Positions 6,511-20,331 of a stretch of 20,331 bases of DNA are shown here, piece by piece. Position 1 is the stretch's first letter. Every line of letters starts with the position of its first letter. This DNA comes from a virus, in IMG/VR virus record IMGVR_UViG_3300026483_000059, positions 1 to 20,331 of that record. One strand, 5' to 3'. Made by a program: the position numbers and the translations under genes. The notes under the pieces are model-generated. The model had not been told where the DNA came from, ran no database searches, and saw only the letters and a program-made list of their open reading frames with translations.

Positions 6511-6759
6511 TTGAACTGGATACAAATAGATAAACAAATTATCAGTATGATGCGGGTAATCAACGATAAAGATAAACTCTACGAAGATGTAAAGCATGTA
6601 TTCAAGTGGAATGACTCACAAGTCGAAGCCGCTGTAAGACCATTGATTGAACGATGGGACTGGTACGGCATGCACAAAGATGAAAAGCCAGTAAAGAAAA
6701 AACGTGCAACAAAAAAAGCCCCTGCTAAAAAAGCAAAGGCTACTAAGAAGAAATCATAA
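6511..6759 (+). CDS. small protein with lysine/alanine-rich histone-like tail
   Basis: Reading from TTG 6511 gives 82 residues; an internal ATG at 6547 would give about 70. The N-terminal 55 residues are mixed charge with several tryptophans (VFKWNDSQVEAA, RWDWYGMHKDEK). The last 25 residues are a run of Lys, Ala, Arg and Thr (KKKRATKKAPAKKAK), like the tails of histone H1-like and HU-like proteins. Binding to DNA or RNA is inferred from this tail only. The start lies 4 bases after the stop of the membrane protein, with weak AGAAAGA upstream. Its end overlaps the convergent nuclease gene by 6 bases, and no terminator lies between them. Confidence 0.6.
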   Translation: MNWIQIDKQIISMMRVINDKDKLYEDVKHVFKWNDSQVEAAVRPLIERWDWYGMHKDEKPVKKKRATKKAPAKKAKATKKKS

Positions 6760-7191
6760 TCTATCTTTAAAATTTTCTAAATATTCTGTAAGAACTTTCG
6801 AACTGCCTATTCGAACATTGATGATACCGTTATAGTATTCATCAGTTTCTAATACACGGCGTTCGAATTGTTCCCGTGCCTCCATATAACTTAAAGCACC
6901 ACGACTCGGACAGTAGTGAAGTATTTCTCTTGTAAACTTGTCTTCACCTAGTTCTGCTACATCTGCATTAAGATGATCAGAAGAACCCCAATATGTACGC
7001 CAATCGCTTTCTTTATATCCACGTCTTTTGTTCTTTCGCCCTTTTAAAGGTGGCTTCGTGGTTTTAAACTTAGCTAACTTCTTACCTACATATTTTCTAT
7101 TATTAGTGGTATTAGTAATAAGATAAACAAATCCCTCAACATCATCAGGTAATTCATTAACTATCTTATTATCATATTTCCAATCACTCAT
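6754..7191 (-). CDS. GIY-YIG family endonuclease-like protein
   Basis: The 145-residue protein has a GIY-YIG-type N-terminal core: GFVYLITNTTNNRKYVGKKL, where FVYLI and KYVGKK replace the GIY and YIG strands. A lysine/arginine-rich loop follows, then YWGSSDHLNADV, matching the conserved Tyr and Ser of phage GIY-YIG proteins. FTREILHYC and the Glu in SYMEAREQFERRVL fit the metal-binding helix, and YYNGIINVRIG is a common ending. Such enzymes nick or cut DNA; in T4-like phages they include homing endonucleases (Seg, I-TevI). The C-terminus is short, so no large DNA-recognition domain is present. A late box stands 108 bases upstream. It follows a long non-coding stretch, which raises the question of a mobile element. 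Confidence 0.8.
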   Translation of the reverse strand: MSDWKYDNKIVNELPDDVEGFVYLITNTTNNRKYVGKKLAKFKTTKPPLKGRKNKRRGYKESDWRTYWGSSDHLNADVAELGEDKFTREILHYCPSRGALSYMEAREQFERRVLETDEYYNGIINVRIGSSKVLTEYLENFKDRL

Positions 7192-7298
7192 TAGTAAATC
7201 ATTTCATCTTATAAGGTCTAAAGACCTAATCCTTCATAAATCTCATATCGCTTTCGCTCAATCGATTTAATCAGTCTTTATGGTTTATATTATAATTG

Positions 7299-7306
7299 TA
7301 TTTATA
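7299..7306 (-). promoter_or_regulatory. T4-type late promoter box before the GIY-YIG gene
   Basis: The minus strand reads exactly TATAAATA, the T4 late consensus, followed by CAATT. A transcript would start near 7293 and carry an untranslated leader of about 100 bases. That leader contains the hairpin AGGTC-TTTA-GACCT (7215-7228). Confidence 0.65.
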
Positions 7307-7798
7307 TATGCCTGCGGCTAAGCCACAATTGCCCTACTGCTAGAGCAACTGCAAAAAAATTATGGATACATGCCATAGCTTCATCGCCTCTGTTTATGAG
7401 CTAGTAGCCAGAAACTACGGGGTCGGTTGGCGATTCCCCCTTCACTCAGTACTGCGTCTTTCGACCCAACGGCATCACAATAAGTCCAAACAGACGGAGT
7501 ATATTGTAATCGATAGTGCTATAGTAGCCTATCATCGGTTATATTATTAAACTGGTCAACCACGCACCTTTAGAGCCGTGGCTGTTGTAATTAGAATACT
7601 TGTATATGTGGTTACGAGAAGATTGTAGGAATTCATCCCTACTAGTCCAACGGCAACAGTTTTTACACTGGCAGATTCAATCCCGAGTTGGCTACCCAAC
7701 TAACAGATCCACTATGTTGTGATATATTAGCCTGTTTCATTATATTAGCCTTGTGTTCTTTATATTAGATTTATATTAGTTTTCAATAGAGCCTGATT
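7307..7798 (-). ncRNA. long non-coding stretch with many hairpins, possible structured late RNA
   Basis: No convincing gene lies between 7192 and 7812. Several strong pairings fit better as a minus-strand RNA, because two of them need G-U pairs on that strand. Minus-strand elements are TTGCTCTA-GCAG-TAGGGCAA (7332-7351), GTGGC-TTA-GCCGC (around 7314-7328), TATGG-CATGTAT-CCATA (around 7360-7377) and GTTGG-GTAG-CCAAC (7687-7700). CCACG (7581-7577) pairs with CGTGG (7564-7560). Around 7419-7470, GTTGG/CCAAC and GGGG/CCCC interleave as a possible H-type pseudoknot. A CATAAATA late box (7799-7806) points into the stretch. No tRNA, tmRNA or group I intron core could be assigned. The class is unknown. 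Confidence 0.4.
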
Positions 7799-7810
7799 TA
7801 TTTATGTTAG
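7723..7810. repeat. five short direct repeats TATATTAG(CCT)
   Basis: TATATTAG occurs at 7723, 7741, 7761 and 7772, and TATGTTAG at 7803. Three of the five are followed directly by CCT. Spacing is irregular (18, 20, 11 and 31 bases). They lie just after the gp51 stop and ahead of the structured stretch on the minus strand. Possible roles are protein binding or a promoter region; AT-rich chance repetition cannot be excluded. Confidence 0.5.
7799..7806 (-). promoter_or_regulatory. late promoter box at the end of gp51
   Basis: The minus strand reads CATAAATA, the same variant as the box before gp26. It begins 7 bases after the gp51 stop and would start transcription near 7793, into the non-coding structured region rather than into a gene. 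Confidence 0.45.
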
Positions 7811-7812
7811 CC

Positions 7813-8046
7813 TTAGAGTATTGGCGTTCCAGCCTGTTTACTCATTTCATAGTTTTCTTTTATAATTTCGTTGATATGATCGATGTGAGATACTGGCATA
7901 TCATGTAATTCAGATATGCTTACCCCACCTCTCATATACCAAGTTAACTTTAACATATTTTTATGCAGCTTGTCAAGCTCTTTTTCAAACTTTTTTGTTT
8001 TTTCTTCAATTTCTTTGTTACTGGCTGTTATGAGCCAGTGCCGAAA
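7813..8046 (-). CDS. gp51: baseplate hub assembly protein, gp51-like, lacking its own start codon
   Basis: The frame ends at TAA 7815-7813 and encodes a gp51-like sequence: a coiled-coil segment (NKEIEEKTKKFEKELDKLHK), then the family hallmark LTWYMRGGVSISEL, then INEIIKENYEMSKQAGTPIL. In T4, gp51 is needed for baseplate hub assembly. The frame is open up to about 8078 but has no ATG, GTG or TTG upstream of the conserved part. The only ATG before the hallmark (7956) would drop the coiled coil and has no ribosome-binding site. The frame is exactly -1 relative to gp26 and overlaps its end, behind a slippery heptamer. I infer it is made as a gp26-gp51 frameshift fusion of about 353 residues. An AUA start at 8031 is the alternative. 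Confidence 0.75.
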   Translation of the reverse strand, partial: FRHWLITASNKEIEEKTKKFEKELDKLHKNMLKLTWYMRGGVSISELHDMPVSHIDHINEIIKENYEMSKQAGTPIL

Positions 8047-8052
8047 AAATTT
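8020..8052 (-). promoter_or_regulatory. candidate programmed -1 frameshift element
   Basis: In the gp26 frame the minus strand reads GTA AAT TTT TTC. This contains A_AAT_TTT (8052-8046) and, overlapping it, T_TTT_TTC (8049-8043), both of the X_XXY_YYZ type. Six bases after the first heptamer comes a perfect 7-bp stem, ACTGGCT-CATAAC-AGCCAGT (8039-8020). Its loop contains the second and third bases of the gp26 stop codon. A -1 shift enters the gp51 frame. Confidence 0.65.
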
Positions 8053-8873
8053 ACAGGGTTGACCTCCAAGACAACCTTATCTTTCGCTTCGCATTCTGGG
8101 CATGAGAATTCAAACGTAGTTGCATCCTCAGGCTTCTTAGACAGAAATTCAATCTTTTTATTAATCTCATTTACAACCTTAGTTGGAATGTTTTCTAAGA
8201 ATTCACTGATAGTATCATAATCAGTGACATCTCCATCTGGTGTCTCTATGTAATTTATAGTATTTGCCAAAAGTTCAACATTGTGTTCTGCGATTGTTCT
8301 AAAACTAGAATAGAAACGTCTTGCTAGTTCATCTTCCTTCATTACTTCATCGCCGTATGTATCTTGTATAGAACGTACAATACGTTGTTGTTCTAAATCA
8401 ATTAACGCTAGTCTAGTAATTGCTTCTACTGTGGGAGGTTGAAGATGTATTTTAAGACTATCGAATTCTACTGGTTCAACTTCTTCAATATCCGGGAAAC
8501 GATTTAAGATAACATTGATATCAATATTAAAATCACTTTGTTCTTCGCATGACTTACATGTATGTGTATGTGTTAATTCACTGCCATAAGTTGCATATTG
8601 AATTGCAAGAAACAATGCTTCAACATCTATATTACACATACCTCTTGGATTAGGAATATCAGGACAGCAACTAGCAACTAAACTAATCAATGCTTCTCCA
8701 TTTAATAGTGCGTCTGGATTCTTTAGAGTTATCTCATCAATCGCAGTCATAGGCAATACACCGATCTCATCTAATTGGGATGTACTGATTTCTGGATTAA
8801 ATTTACCGCCTGTGGGCAGTTTTATATAAATTGATGGTTTTCTAAAGTATTTTTGTAGTGGGTTATTTGTCAT
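8028..8873 (-). CDS. gp26: baseplate hub subunit, gp26-like
   Basis: The 281-residue protein resembles T4-like gp26 baseplate hub proteins: FRKPSIYIKLPTGGKF at the N-terminus, VLPMTAIDEITLKNPDALLN, then the CCPDIPNPRGMCNIDVEALF block. Two CxxC pairs, CKSC near residue 106 and CPEC near residue 264, probably bind one zinc ion. T4 gp26 is shorter (208 residues). A CATAAATA late box lies 37 bases before the ATG. No strong ribosome-binding site is seen; GAGGCG at 8886-8881 is the nearest. The C-terminus (VNFFGTGS) is built on the slippery site that leads into gp51. The neighbouring divergent gene may be the tape measure, so this locus resembles the chaperone/tape-measure arrangement of other tailed phages. 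Confidence 0.82.
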   Translation of the reverse strand: MTNNPLQKYFRKPSIYIKLPTGGKFNPEISTSQLDEIGVLPMTAIDEITLKNPDALLNGEALISLVASCCPDIPNPRGMCNIDVEALFLAIQYATYGSELTHTHTCKSCEEQSDFNIDINVILNRFPDIEEVEPVEFDSLKIHLQPPTVEAITRLALIDLEQQRIVRSIQDTYGDEVMKEDELARRFYSSFRTIAEHNVELLANTINYIETPDGDVTDYDTISEFLENIPTKVVNEINKKIEFLSKKPEDATTFEFSCPECEAKDKVVLEVNPVNFFGTGS

Positions 8874-8917: not shown

Positions 8918-8973
8918 CTATAGTTATTTAATCAATTATAAACTACGAATATAATCAAAAAGTGAGAGAGTTT

Positions 8974-11505
8974 ATGGCAGAAGACGTAATTATTAGAGGT
9001 TTTGGAGATGATAGAGATTTTCCTGACTTTGCTACTGAAAAAACTATTAAGACAGTAGAGGCAGCTTTAAAGCAAGCTAACGTATTTAATAGTGAGTCCA
9101 CCAAGTATCTAGCACAGGTTGCATTAGGTGAAAAACGTGGTCAGATGGCTATGAATAAACTTATGCAATCTATGAACAATGTTGCATCAGAAATTAAAAA
9201 AGGTGCAAAAGATGGTAGTGATGCCGCAGATTCTGCCGATCAAGCAAGTAAAAAGCAATTAGGTGCATTTACTAAATTACTAACATTAGGAAAAGACACC
9301 ATCAAATTGAGAAAAGAACAATTTGCAAAAGAGTTAAAAAATGATGATGAGATAAAGCGCCTTATGAAACAAGGTATGGCTGAAGATAGTGCAGGTCTTA
9401 TGGCTGGGTTATCAAGTCTATCTGGTATTGCAGGTAAACTTGCTGCAGGTGTTGTTGCAGTTGCAGGAGTAGTTAAAGGTGCAAACAACTATCTATTACA
9501 ACAAGGAACTGATAGATTCAACTTCGCACAGGAATTAAGACAGAGTGGTCTAGCCGCAGGACTTTCTGAATCAGGTGCAAGTCTAACAGCATTTGCAGAT
9601 AAGGTTCGAGTGAATAACTTTACTCTAGGAGAAGCGGCAGAGTTTACACAGCGTTTCTCAAAAGCAGTCGGCGTTACTGGTGTTAATGGTGCATTAGATT
9701 TTGTAAACACATTAGCATATAGTGGTGATAACGGCGGCGATATGATGCGTAGGTTTGGTATGGAGTTTGGTGAAGTTGCAAATGTATCAGGTGAATACTT
9801 AGAATCTGTACGTGCATTAGGTATGTTAGACAAAATGTCAAATAATGAACTTAGACTTGGTATGGACAATTTTATGTCAACCGTTGTTGCAACATCTAAT
9901 ATTATGAAGATTAATATGGAAGATGCAGCACAAATGATTAAAGATACATTAAAACGTGATGATATTACATCATTGCTTGCTACTATGGATCCAGATAGAG
10001 CCGCACAAGTACAAGATGTAGTAGGACTTGCAGGAGGTATGCAAACTGAGCTAGGCGAAGCCCTTGCACAAAGATTAGCAGCAGGTTCACAACAAGAATT
10101 TATGATGTCCGATGCATATAGACAATTACAATCAAGTCCTATAGCAATGGAACTTCTTCCAGTAATTGAAAGATTAGCATCAGCATCAGAACAAGGAGGA
10201 ACTGAAGGGTTCCAAAATGCATTTGCTAATCTAAGTGGTGATATTGAAAGAATAAGAGGTATAGCATCTGATAACAGAGTTCTATTTACATCTGGCTCAG
10301 ATGATACAGGCATGAAAGTACTAGCACAATTGATGAGACAATCACAAACAGCAGAAGATGCAAATGCTGGATTTGTTAAATTGGGAGAAGATGACCAAGC
10401 AGTAATAGGTGCAGTTGAAGTCCAGCGACAGTTTACAGTTGCTATGGAAGGTGTAAATAATGAGCTAATAAAATCTGGTAACTTTGGTGAGAATGTAGCA
10501 AAACTTAATAGAGCAAATCTAGCATTAATTGAAACTTTAGAAGCAGAAGCAACCGGTGTTGCAAATCAAGTATCTGGTATTATATTTGATACTACATTTG
10601 CTGCGCAAGCAGGTGTGACATCAATTATTAATAGATTTGTAGGAAGTGTGGCAGATATAGCACGTGGTGTCGGACTACTGGATAGTGAGGCAGGAAAAGC
10701 CGCAGATGCAGTAAGAGCAATGAGACAATCTATTAATGCTACCTTTGGCGGCGCAGCAGCGTTTGATGCAAATGGTGAATTAGCTTCTGGTCCTATCGGT
10801 GACTTAGTTAATAAAATTAATAGTACTGAAACAGAAATATCAAACTTAGGTCCGGATGCAAATCCATATACGCAAGGTGGTTTAACTGCATCATTACAAC
10901 GTGATAGAGCAGAATTAGAAGAATTAATTTCTGAAATCGAAGTAGCAAATCCACAAGCGGCTAATCTACTTAGAATTGAAGCAGGATTAAATAATCTAGT
11001 ACAAGCAGATGAAACTGTGCAATATGACCCAGAACGATTAGCATTAGAACAACAAATGATGTTGACATCACATGGTGGTTTTATTGGACAAAAGGATTCT
11101 GAAGGTTATGTACTTCAAGGCGGCGGTCGCATGGAAACTAGTGAACAGGCGTCTGAGCGTGTATTAGCATCATTAGAAGCTAGTTTAGGAACAACTCTGA
11201 ATAGAAAGGCATTCAATGCGATAAGTTCTGGCGATAGTACTGATTTATTAGACACACTTGGTTTTGACGATGCAGATAACAATATAACTGCCGAAGAAAC
11301 TAGAATGGTTGGAGATATGATAATAGCTATGAACGAAAACAATATGCTAAGCCAAGAAAAAGTACAAGAATTAATAGAAGCGATGAAAAATACAACAGGA
11401 TCTGAAGGAGCTTTAGACTTCAGTGTAGCATCAGCAGAAGAAAAGGCAGAACGTGACAGACTAATATCTTCAATTGATATATTAGTAACACAACTAAGAC
11501 AATAA
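8974..11505 (+). CDS. large helical structural protein, probable tail tape measure
   Basis: The 843-residue protein is mostly predicted helix, rich in Ala, Gly, Asn and Gln, with a single hydrophobic segment near residues 143-165 (AGLSSLSGIAGKLAAGVVAV). This pattern of helical body plus internal hydrophobic patch is typical of tape-measure proteins, which set tail length. T4 gp29 does this job with 590 residues; I saw no sequence signature proving homology. GTG 8962 is possible as a start but would contain the ribosome-binding site GAGAGAG. ATG 8974, 5 bases after it, is preferred. Context fits: late box upstream, gp26 and gp51 divergent, portal downstream. No lysozyme or peptidase motif was noticed. 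An internal virion protein is the main alternative. Confidence 0.5.
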   Translation: MAEDVIIRGFGDDRDFPDFATEKTIKTVEAALKQANVFNSESTKYLAQVALGEKRGQMAMNKLMQSMNNVASEIKKGAKDGSDAADSADQASKKQLGAFTKLLTLGKDTIKLRKEQFAKELKNDDEIKRLMKQGMAEDSAGLMAGLSSLSGIAGKLAAGVVAVAGVVKGANNYLLQQGTDRFNFAQELRQSGLAAGLSESGASLTAFADKVRVNNFTLGEAAEFTQRFSKAVGVTGVNGALDFVNTLAYSGDNGGDMMRRFGMEFGEVANVSGEYLESVRALGMLDKMSNNELRLGMDNFMSTVVATSNIMKINMEDAAQMIKDTLKRDDITSLLATMDPDRAAQVQDVVGLAGGMQTELGEALAQRLAAGSQQEFMMSDAYRQLQSSPIAMELLPVIERLASASEQGGTEGFQNAFANLSGDIERIRGIASDNRVLFTSGSDDTGMKVLAQLMRQSQTAEDANAGFVKLGEDDQAVIGAVEVQRQFTVAMEGVNNELIKSGNFGENVAKLNRANLALIETLEAEATGVANQVSGIIFDTTFAAQAGVTSIINRFVGSVADIARGVGLLDSEAGKAADAVRAMRQSINATFGGAAAFDANGELASGPIGDLVNKINSTETEISNLGPDANPYTQGGLTASLQRDRAELEELISEIEVANPQAANLLRIEAGLNNLVQADETVQYDPERLALEQQMMLTSHGGFIGQKDSEGYVLQGGGRMETSEQASERVLASLEASLGTTLNRKAFNAISSGDSTDLLDTLGFDDADNNITAEETRMVGDMIIAMNENNMLSQEKVQELIEAMKNTTGSEGALDFSVASAEEKAERDRLISSIDILVTQLRQ

Positions 11506-19405: not shown

Positions 19406-20331
19406 TGACTACAAATATTAATTCATATATTCTAGGAAGTTCTACAGTTCAGAATACTAATCTGCACGATAATGTATTTGGTAGTTCAGTAGGCACAGCA
19501 GTTGAAGGTCATACTACAATAACTATTAATACTAGTGGTGATTTGTCAGGCGGTGGAACTATTACGTTAGGTTCTGGAGGAACTCTTGAGGTGAGTTATA
19601 CTGGTCCTACTATACCAACTAATGTATCAGAATTTACAAATGATAGTGCATATATTACATCTGCATCTATACCAACTAATGTATCAGAATTTACAAATGA
19701 TAGTGCATATATTACATCTGCATCTATACCAACTGCCATAAGTTCATTTACAAATGATAGTGCATACATCACAGCTTCAGCTATACCAAGTAATATAAGT
19801 TCATTTACAAATGATAGCGCATATATTACATCTGCATCTATACCAACTGCCATAAGTTCATTTACAAATGATAGTGCATATATTACATCTGCATCTATAC
19901 CAACTAATGTAAGTTCATTCACAAATGATAGTGGATACTTGACAGCACATCAAGACCTATCATCATATGCATTAACTACTCAACTATTTTCTGGGTCTTA
20001 TAATGACTTAACAAATACGCCAACTATTCCAACAGTGCCAACAAATGTAAGTGCATTTACAAACGATAGTGGATATCTTACTAGTTATACTGATACGACA
20101 TATTCAACTGCCACATCAAGTACGTTAGGATTAGTTAAAATTGGATATAGTGAGAATGGTAAAAACTATCCAGTTGAATTGTCAAGTGGAAAAATGTTTG
20201 TAAACGTTCCTTGGACTGATACAGATACTAATAGTGACACAACATATACTGCTGGAACTGGATTAACATTGACCAGCACAGAATTTTCAGTAGACTCTAC
20301 GATTGCACCTAAAACATATGTAGATACTGCT
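19405..20331 (+). CDS. repeat-containing tail-fibre-like protein, C-terminus beyond window
   Basis: The frame opens at ATG 19405, overlapping the previous stop, and stays open for 309 codons to the window edge. It begins MTTNINSYILGSSTVQNTNL, passes a Gly/Thr-rich stretch, then carries six tandem 19-residue units of the type IPTNVSEFTNDSAYITSAS at residues 70-183. A further unit, VPTNVSAFTNDSGYLTSY, comes near residue 212. The last visible part, STLGLVKIGYSENGKNYPVE followed by LSSGKMFVNVPW, is common in phage fibres. The repeats probably form a trimeric beta shaft. Translation is likely coupled to the upstream gene. The receptor-binding tip, if any, lies outside the window. Confidence 0.8.
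   Translation, partial: MTTNINSYILGSSTVQNTNLHDNVFGSSVGTAVEGHTTITINTSGDLSGGGTITLGSGGTLEVSYTGPTIPTNVSEFTNDSAYITSASIPTNVSEFTNDSAYITSASIPTAISSFTNDSAYITASAIPSNISSFTNDSAYITSASIPTAISSFTNDSAYITSASIPTNVSSFTNDSGYLTAHQDLSSYALTTQLFSGSYNDLTNTPTIPTVPTNVSAFTNDSGYLTSYTDTTYSTATSSTLGLVKIGYSENGKNYPVELSSGKMFVNVPWTDTDTNSDTTYTAGTGLTLTSTEFSVDSTIAPKTYVDTA
19612..19953 (+). repeat. six tandem 57-bp coding repeats in the fibre gene
   Basis: Units begin at 19612, 19669, 19726, 19783, 19840 and 19897. Units 1 and 2 are identical base for base, units 3 and 5 share a variant (CCAACTGCCATAAGT), and unit 6 diverges at its end. The constant core is TTTACAAATGATAG, encoding FTNDS. Identical units suggest recent duplication by recombination or slippage. 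Confidence 0.95.

Follow-up and report, generated by a model that had tools for sequence, protein, structure and literature searches.

The window examined here, a 20,331-nt stretch of viral DNA (IMGVR_UViG_3300026483_000059), carries on its minus strand a gp26 homologue encoded by an open reading frame (ORF) of 281 aa at 8028-8873. The protein matched the Pfam family PF12322 (T4_baseplate; E 3.5e-22, 79.6 bits, above the curated cut-off of 24.5) as well as phrog_150 (baseplate hub; E 3.6e-26), and no other PF12322 gene was found in the record. The 3' end of the gene, GTC AAC CCT GTA AAT TTT TTC GGC ACT GGC TCA TAA, contains two overlapping slippery heptamers, T_TTT_TTC (8043..8049, minus strand) and A_AAT_TTT (8046..8052, minus strand), both in the phase required for -1 slippage before the zero-frame stop codon TAA (8028..8030, minus strand). 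The -1 frame then remains open for 76 codons plus a stop (7813..8043, minus strand; RHWLITASNKEIEEK...LTWYMRGG...GTPIL). Slippage at either heptamer would be expected to yield the same product, a complete 353-aa protein (7813..8873, minus strand, with its end at 7813) in which gp26 and extension are joined as VNFF-RHWL. The 281-aa protein would correspond to the short form (TAC-N) and the 353-aa protein to the long form (TAC-NC) of a tail assembly chaperone pair, with the extension as the equivalent of the gp51 C-terminal domain. An initial annotation made from the sequence alone had already described the 281-aa gene, both heptamers in the -1 phase, the open -1 frame and the 353-aa fusion, and all of these lie where it had placed them.

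The gp26 gene adjoins a divergent gene (8962..11505, plus strand) for an 847-aa virion protein in a tape-measure-like position; this protein had no Pfam match, and its syntenic counterpart in RaK2 is annotated (L018) as similar to tail tape measure protein. On the other side, the extension is separated from a gene for a SegE-type GIY-YIG endonuclease (6754-7191, minus strand) by 621 nt without annotated-looking genes (7192-7812, minus strand). This stretch is 96% identical in the related locus L008, although the gp26 fragment of L008 shows a protein identity of only 77%. No tRNA and no Rfam match was found in it, and its RNA fold had a z score of -1.5 (minus strand); it may belong to a mobile element or specify a novel RNA. 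The right end of the window contains a 57-bp unit repeated in tandem (19610-19937, 5.8 copies) that encodes an in-frame protein repeat.

To place the junction in a wider context, we compared it among 201 loci from jumbo phages, cyanophages, KVP40-like phages and Rhizobium phages; KVP40 and HTVC008M were left out of this comparison. A tblastn search with gp26 returned 61 phage records, all with <60% identity and including RaK2, PBECO4, Munch, GAP32, XaC1, PA5oct-type phages, SCTP-2, Vibrio 2.275, Phosso and Atu_ph07, and scans of IMG/VR with single-protein seeds supplied many further relatives. At every junction that was read among the tblastn relatives, T_TTT_TT[C/T] is present and leads into an open -1 frame that begins with FF-R or a similar sequence. 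Overall, an in-phase T_TTT_TT[C/T/G] was present in the last gp26 codons of 199 of the 201 loci, these 199 comprising 147 distinct junctions and 15 clusters at 50% gp26 identity, and the -1 frame stays open for 57-80 codons downstream of the heptamer wherever the contig covers the extension. The junction alignment that the initial annotation had proposed for heptamer, -1 phase and absence of a start codon is thus clearly positive. The heptamer is T_TTT_TTC in 13 of the clusters, T_TTT_TTT in one and T_TTT_TTG in another. Each frameshift genome searched that gave a PF12322 match, including records of 365, 383, 400 and 490 kb, contained a single copy of the family. The gp26 homologue of the Salicola phage SCTP-2 (L014) fell below the PF12322 threshold (E 0.01), but with 28.7% identity to the window and the same heptamer it is clearly homologous; the Pfam model therefore under-detects the family in jumbo phages.

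The conservation of T_TTT_TTC exceeds what codon usage predicts. Codon frequencies in the rest of these genes predict this heptamer for 7.9% of Phe-Phe pairs, and it occurs at only one of the 129 such pairs outside the junction. At the junction itself, 145 of the 147 distinct sequences are exactly T_TTT_TTC, the other two being T_TTT_TTT and T_TTT_TTG. The gp26 stop codon of the relatives lies anywhere from 0 to 33 nt past the heptamer and always in frame 0, which indicates that the slip site, rather than the stop, is held in place. The second heptamer, A_AAT_TTT, is kept within the lineage of the window and is no family-wide feature.

Comparison of the extensions shows that the -1 frame is protein-coding. 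Between the window and L008 the extension differs at 22 of 192 nt, 17 of them at third positions (dN 0.036, dS 0.78), and the median dN/dS among pairs of L007-type extensions (n = 58) was 0.058. At all 53 loci tested, both other frames contain stops and the -1 frame contains none. Within a group, extension length hardly varies: the window group has 76 codons, most members of the L007 jumbo group have 77, the RaK2 group has 70-71 and cyanophages have 60-68. By these measures the -1 frame is under strong selection at the protein level, with dN/dS about 0.05. The -1 domain of the window was not recognised by Pfam, PHROGs or NCBIfam, and a direct tblastn search with it against phages gave chance-level matches only; one of these, in Synechococcus phage ACG-2014e, was rejected given that gp26 is not adjacent to it.

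To interpret the extension, we turned to phage T4, which has two PF12322 genes. Both gp26 (208 aa) and gp51 (249 aa) of T4 fill PF12322 and phrog_150, and gp51 is the longer, with an extra C-terminus that also matches phrog_634 (E 6e-10); judged by this shared family, the two proteins are paralogues, one a short and one a long form. The T4 gp26 gene ends with GAG TTC TTT GAG TTA CTA TAA, in which Phe-Phe is kept and the slippery heptamer is absent. At the corresponding place T4 gp51 reads DVFKLLVNPDEI, which by eye resembles the FFR..LL..PEEI of the frameshift products. Phrog_634, the family of the gp51 C-terminus, was also matched by the extensions of cyanophages, the KVP40-like phage phi-Grn1 and Rhizobium phage IC12 (E 5.5e-08 to 3.8e-31). 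The jumbo extension of the window had no direct phrog_634 match. In hhalign profile comparisons, run in local mode, it aligned with the gp51 C-terminus at Prob 73.5 and E 2.9e-05 when small alignments were used, and at only Prob 2-5 and E 0.008-0.02 with larger ones, a weak similarity; like the gp51-type extension, it occupies the position after FF-R..L. The whole jumbo fusion matched the whole cyanophage fusion, extension included, at Prob 99.2 and E 6.4e-20. Because gp51 is a gp26 paralogue with a C-terminal extension, the frameshift product corresponds to a one-gene equivalent of gp51, in place of the two divergent paralogous genes of T4. The locus had initially been described as gp26 fused to gp51; the frameshift in that description stands, whereas a fusion of two T4 proteins does not, as gp51 is itself an extended gp26. 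Nor is LTWYMRGG the hallmark of the gp51 family that it had been taken for, since the motif is absent from T4 gp51 (P0003); WYMRGG is typical for the -1 domain of one group of jumbo phages.

We consider it very probable that the locus is the only tail assembly chaperone gene of a jumbo phage of the T4 superfamily and gives rise, by -1 frameshifting, to a short form of 281 aa and a long form of 353 aa. That this pair would act on the tape measure protein is inferred from the literature on T4, from the identification of T4-like chaperone genes as cited below and from the analogy with phage lambda. In a review from the T4 literature, gp26 and gp51 are tabulated as hub assembly chaperones, gp51 is described as needed for assembly yet absent from the particle, and some authors are said to have reported that gp26 belongs to the hub (PMC3004832). 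Short and long tail assembly chaperone genes of T4-like phages are credited to Vladimirov et al. 2022 in two later papers (PMC10885494, PMC12846349), one of which also credits that study with poly-T slippery sequences in the TAC-N genes (PMC12846349). In lambda, too, a minority long form, gpGT, arises when ribosomes slip by -1 close to the 3' end of the short gene, and a tape-measure-like gene adjoins; the heptamer and gene order differ, the neighbour in the window being divergent, and no relationship in sequence or fold emerged. The analogy with lambda G/GT, drawn at the outset, is therefore apt as one of architecture.

A rather unlikely alternative is that the frameshift is real and the two products are a structural protein of the baseplate hub and its extended variant. 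This reading draws on the reports of T4 gp26 as a hub component, on LIMEstone1 gp26, which is noted as a confirmed structural protein, and on the structure prediction. The AlphaFold (AF2) model of gp26 had a pLDDT of 82 and no match in the PDB at E <= 0.001, so that a lambda-type chaperone fold is not supported, and its named matches in BFVD were mostly T4-type baseplate hub proteins. The requirement for T4 gp51 despite its absence from the particle (PMC3004832) and the cited identification of chaperone genes argue against such a structural role, and the presence in the sequence of both a short and a long form at one locus, next to a tape-measure-like gene, suits chaperones. In the Foldseek search of BFVD, the gp26 model also matched uncharacterised proteins of 500-690 aa (E 1e-6 to 2e-4) from the phiKZ-like phages Ralstonia RP12 and RSF1 and Erwinia phiEaH2 and Special G, which offers a starting point for finding their chaperone genes.

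The -1 ORF might instead be a separate small gene, translated by re-initiation at a start codon that overlaps the gp26 stop or lies just past it. The one candidate at that place in the window is an ATA overlapping the stop (C-ATA-A), and ATA is a permitted rare start codon in translation table 11. Phosso and Atu_ph07 have an ATG at this place (in an ATGA overlap), several annotators call a separate gene, and in Cygsa01 and LIMEstone1, which have lost the heptamer and carry TAATG, the C-terminal ORF does look like a true separate cistron. Against this, the ATA is replaced by GTA in L004 and L005 and is missing in L008. The first usual start codon in the extensions of the window group is codon 30, the first 29 codons having none; most L007-type and cyanophage extensions lack one up to codon 15, and at two PA5oct-type junctions the whole extension is without one. 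Separate initiation is for these reasons not the general mechanism. It would also leave the selection for T_TTT_TTC unexplained, and we regard it as very improbable for the window. The statement that ATG, GTG and TTG are lacking upstream of LTWYMRGG holds for the coiled coil and fails for the last residues before the motif, given that the ATG at codon 30, the first of the -1 frame, lies three codons upstream of it. In the Ackermannviridae-type phages SS3, IME250 and Klebsiella phi1_146021, the transition from gp26 to the C-terminal ORF of gp51 type reads TAATTTTTGAAA (L032 1945-1975, L207 540-570, L209 547-577; compare L208 550 and L027 2309), and ATT occupies the very position of the ATG in LIMEstone1 and Cygsa01. 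It is possible that these three phages use a conserved AUU start at a stop-start overlap.

Two candidate stimulators accompany the slip site. A Shine-Dalgarno (SD)-like GGAGG (8063..8067, minus strand), absent from the initial annotation, sits 10 nt upstream of A_AAT_TTT and 13 nt upstream of T_TTT_TTC; in the window lineage the predicted anti-SD duplex at the junction had an energy of -10.5 kcal/mol against a background mean of -0.17 kcal/mol. The signal was weaker in cyanophages (-5.9 versus -1.1 kcal/mol), and by the same measure none was found upstream of the heptamer in RaK2-type phages. Downstream lies a perfectly paired 7-bp hairpin, ACTGGCT-CATAAC-AGCCAGT (8020..8039, minus strand; stem 8033-8039 and 8020-8026), with a fold of -11.5 kcal/mol (z = -3.6) that none of 200 shuffles equalled. 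Its loop holds the entire gp26 stop codon rather than most of it, as previously described, and the 6-nt spacing then given is correct from A_AAT_TTT, the distance from T_TTT_TTC being only 3 nt. The stem is retained in L004 and L005 and absent from L008, the most diverged member of the window lineage; among the junctions folded, hairpins were prominent in the window group and in one PA5oct-type phage and not in others. No Rfam match was found within 7150-8130. The GGAGG and the hairpin probably stimulate slippage in the lineage of the window. Their restriction to particular lineages and the 3-nt distance of the hairpin from the conserved heptamer both count against frameshifting as we describe it. 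In the -1 frameshift of E. coli dnaX, an SD-like element about 10 nt upstream, a slippery heptamer and a downstream hairpin are combined. The window shares this three-part layout, whereas dnaX is a cellular gene with an unrelated product, and stimulators of the window type occur in only one lineage.

A run of six T residues could also permit slippage of RNA polymerase instead of the ribosome, and the fusion would be expected from either mechanism. Polymerase slippage needs neither a codon phase nor a C after the run, and it normally involves longer runs; six T followed by C in the phase N_NNN_NNN are nevertheless found in almost all lineages, and the SD element added in the window lineage is a translational signal. 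We therefore judge transcriptional slippage extremely unlikely. The probability that a sequencing or assembly indel has split an originally continuous gene is vanishingly small: homopolymers such as T6 are prone to indels in some sequencing chemistries, but 199 of 201 loci, drawn from independent metagenomes and from cultured phages, share the phase, and their stop codons vary in distance from the heptamer (0 to 33 nt) without ever leaving frame 0, which refutes it. The relatives thus exclude, as general explanations, both a separately started gp51 and a sequencing indel, the two outcomes named beforehand as able to overturn the frameshift.

Under ribosomal frameshifting, most ribosomes would terminate at the TAA and release the 281-aa gp26-like protein. 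A minority would pause, under the influence of the GGAGG upstream and the hairpin downstream, and slip one base back at T_TTT_TTC, where UUU UUC would re-pair as UUU UUU, most likely by tandem slippage of two tRNA-Phe. Comparison shows the heptamer, its phase, the open and selected -1 frame, the single gene per genome and the paralogy of T4 gp26 and gp51, whereas the slippage itself, its rate and the roles of the GGAGG and the hairpin are inferences. The slipped ribosomes would complete the 353-aa protein, whose extra C-terminal domain would stand in for that of T4 gp51, and the two forms would probably work together on the tape measure protein as the tail or hub is assembled, like gpG and gpGT of lambda.

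The gp26 loci of cyanophages, KVP40-like phages and Rhizobium phages (S-RIM12, Sf-FS3, phi-Grn1, IC12 and RL38J1) share with the window T_TTT_TTC or T_TTT_TTG at the same site and in the same phase, a single PF12322 gene in each genome tested, and a C-terminal extension, which there is of the gp51 type; they differ in the length of the extension (57-68 codons), in the absence of WYMRGG and in their stimulators. The tail assembly chaperone genes described for Vandenendeviridae and Andersonviridae likewise carry a conserved poly-T -1 site where TAC-N ends and have a downstream ORF mis-annotated as a separate gene, but they belong to other families, use a GTTTTT motif and lie directly upstream of the tape measure gene (PMC12846349). 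Contrary to the initial remark that no such fusion had been reported in T4-like phages, later papers attribute short and long chaperones and poly-T sites to Vladimirov et al. 2022 (PMC10885494, PMC12846349), so that the principle was already known and the surprise for specialists should be moderate. What the present comparison adds is a marine jumbo lineage, the wide reach of the conservation among other jumbo phages and stimulators restricted to individual lineages.

A joint reading of these patterns, to which we give roughly even chances, is that the one-gene frameshift is a widespread and probably ancestral state of the T4 superfamily, which includes jumbo phages of the RaK2, PA5oct, Atu_ph07 and SCTP-2 types and the marine lineage of the window. 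T4 would then be derived, with gene duplication having replaced recoding; the Ackermannviridae would represent a third state in which the C-terminal cistron has split off, and the dnaX-like combination of SD element and hairpin would have been gained secondarily in the window lineage. None of the annotated public records examined that carry the slippery site has the fused long form annotated, which points to a systematic annotation error. The relatives provide a small natural set of -1 sites whose stimulators differ, and the old puzzle of why T4 needs gp51, an essential and non-structural protein, can be recast in testable form as an evolutionary switch between gene duplication and frameshifting.
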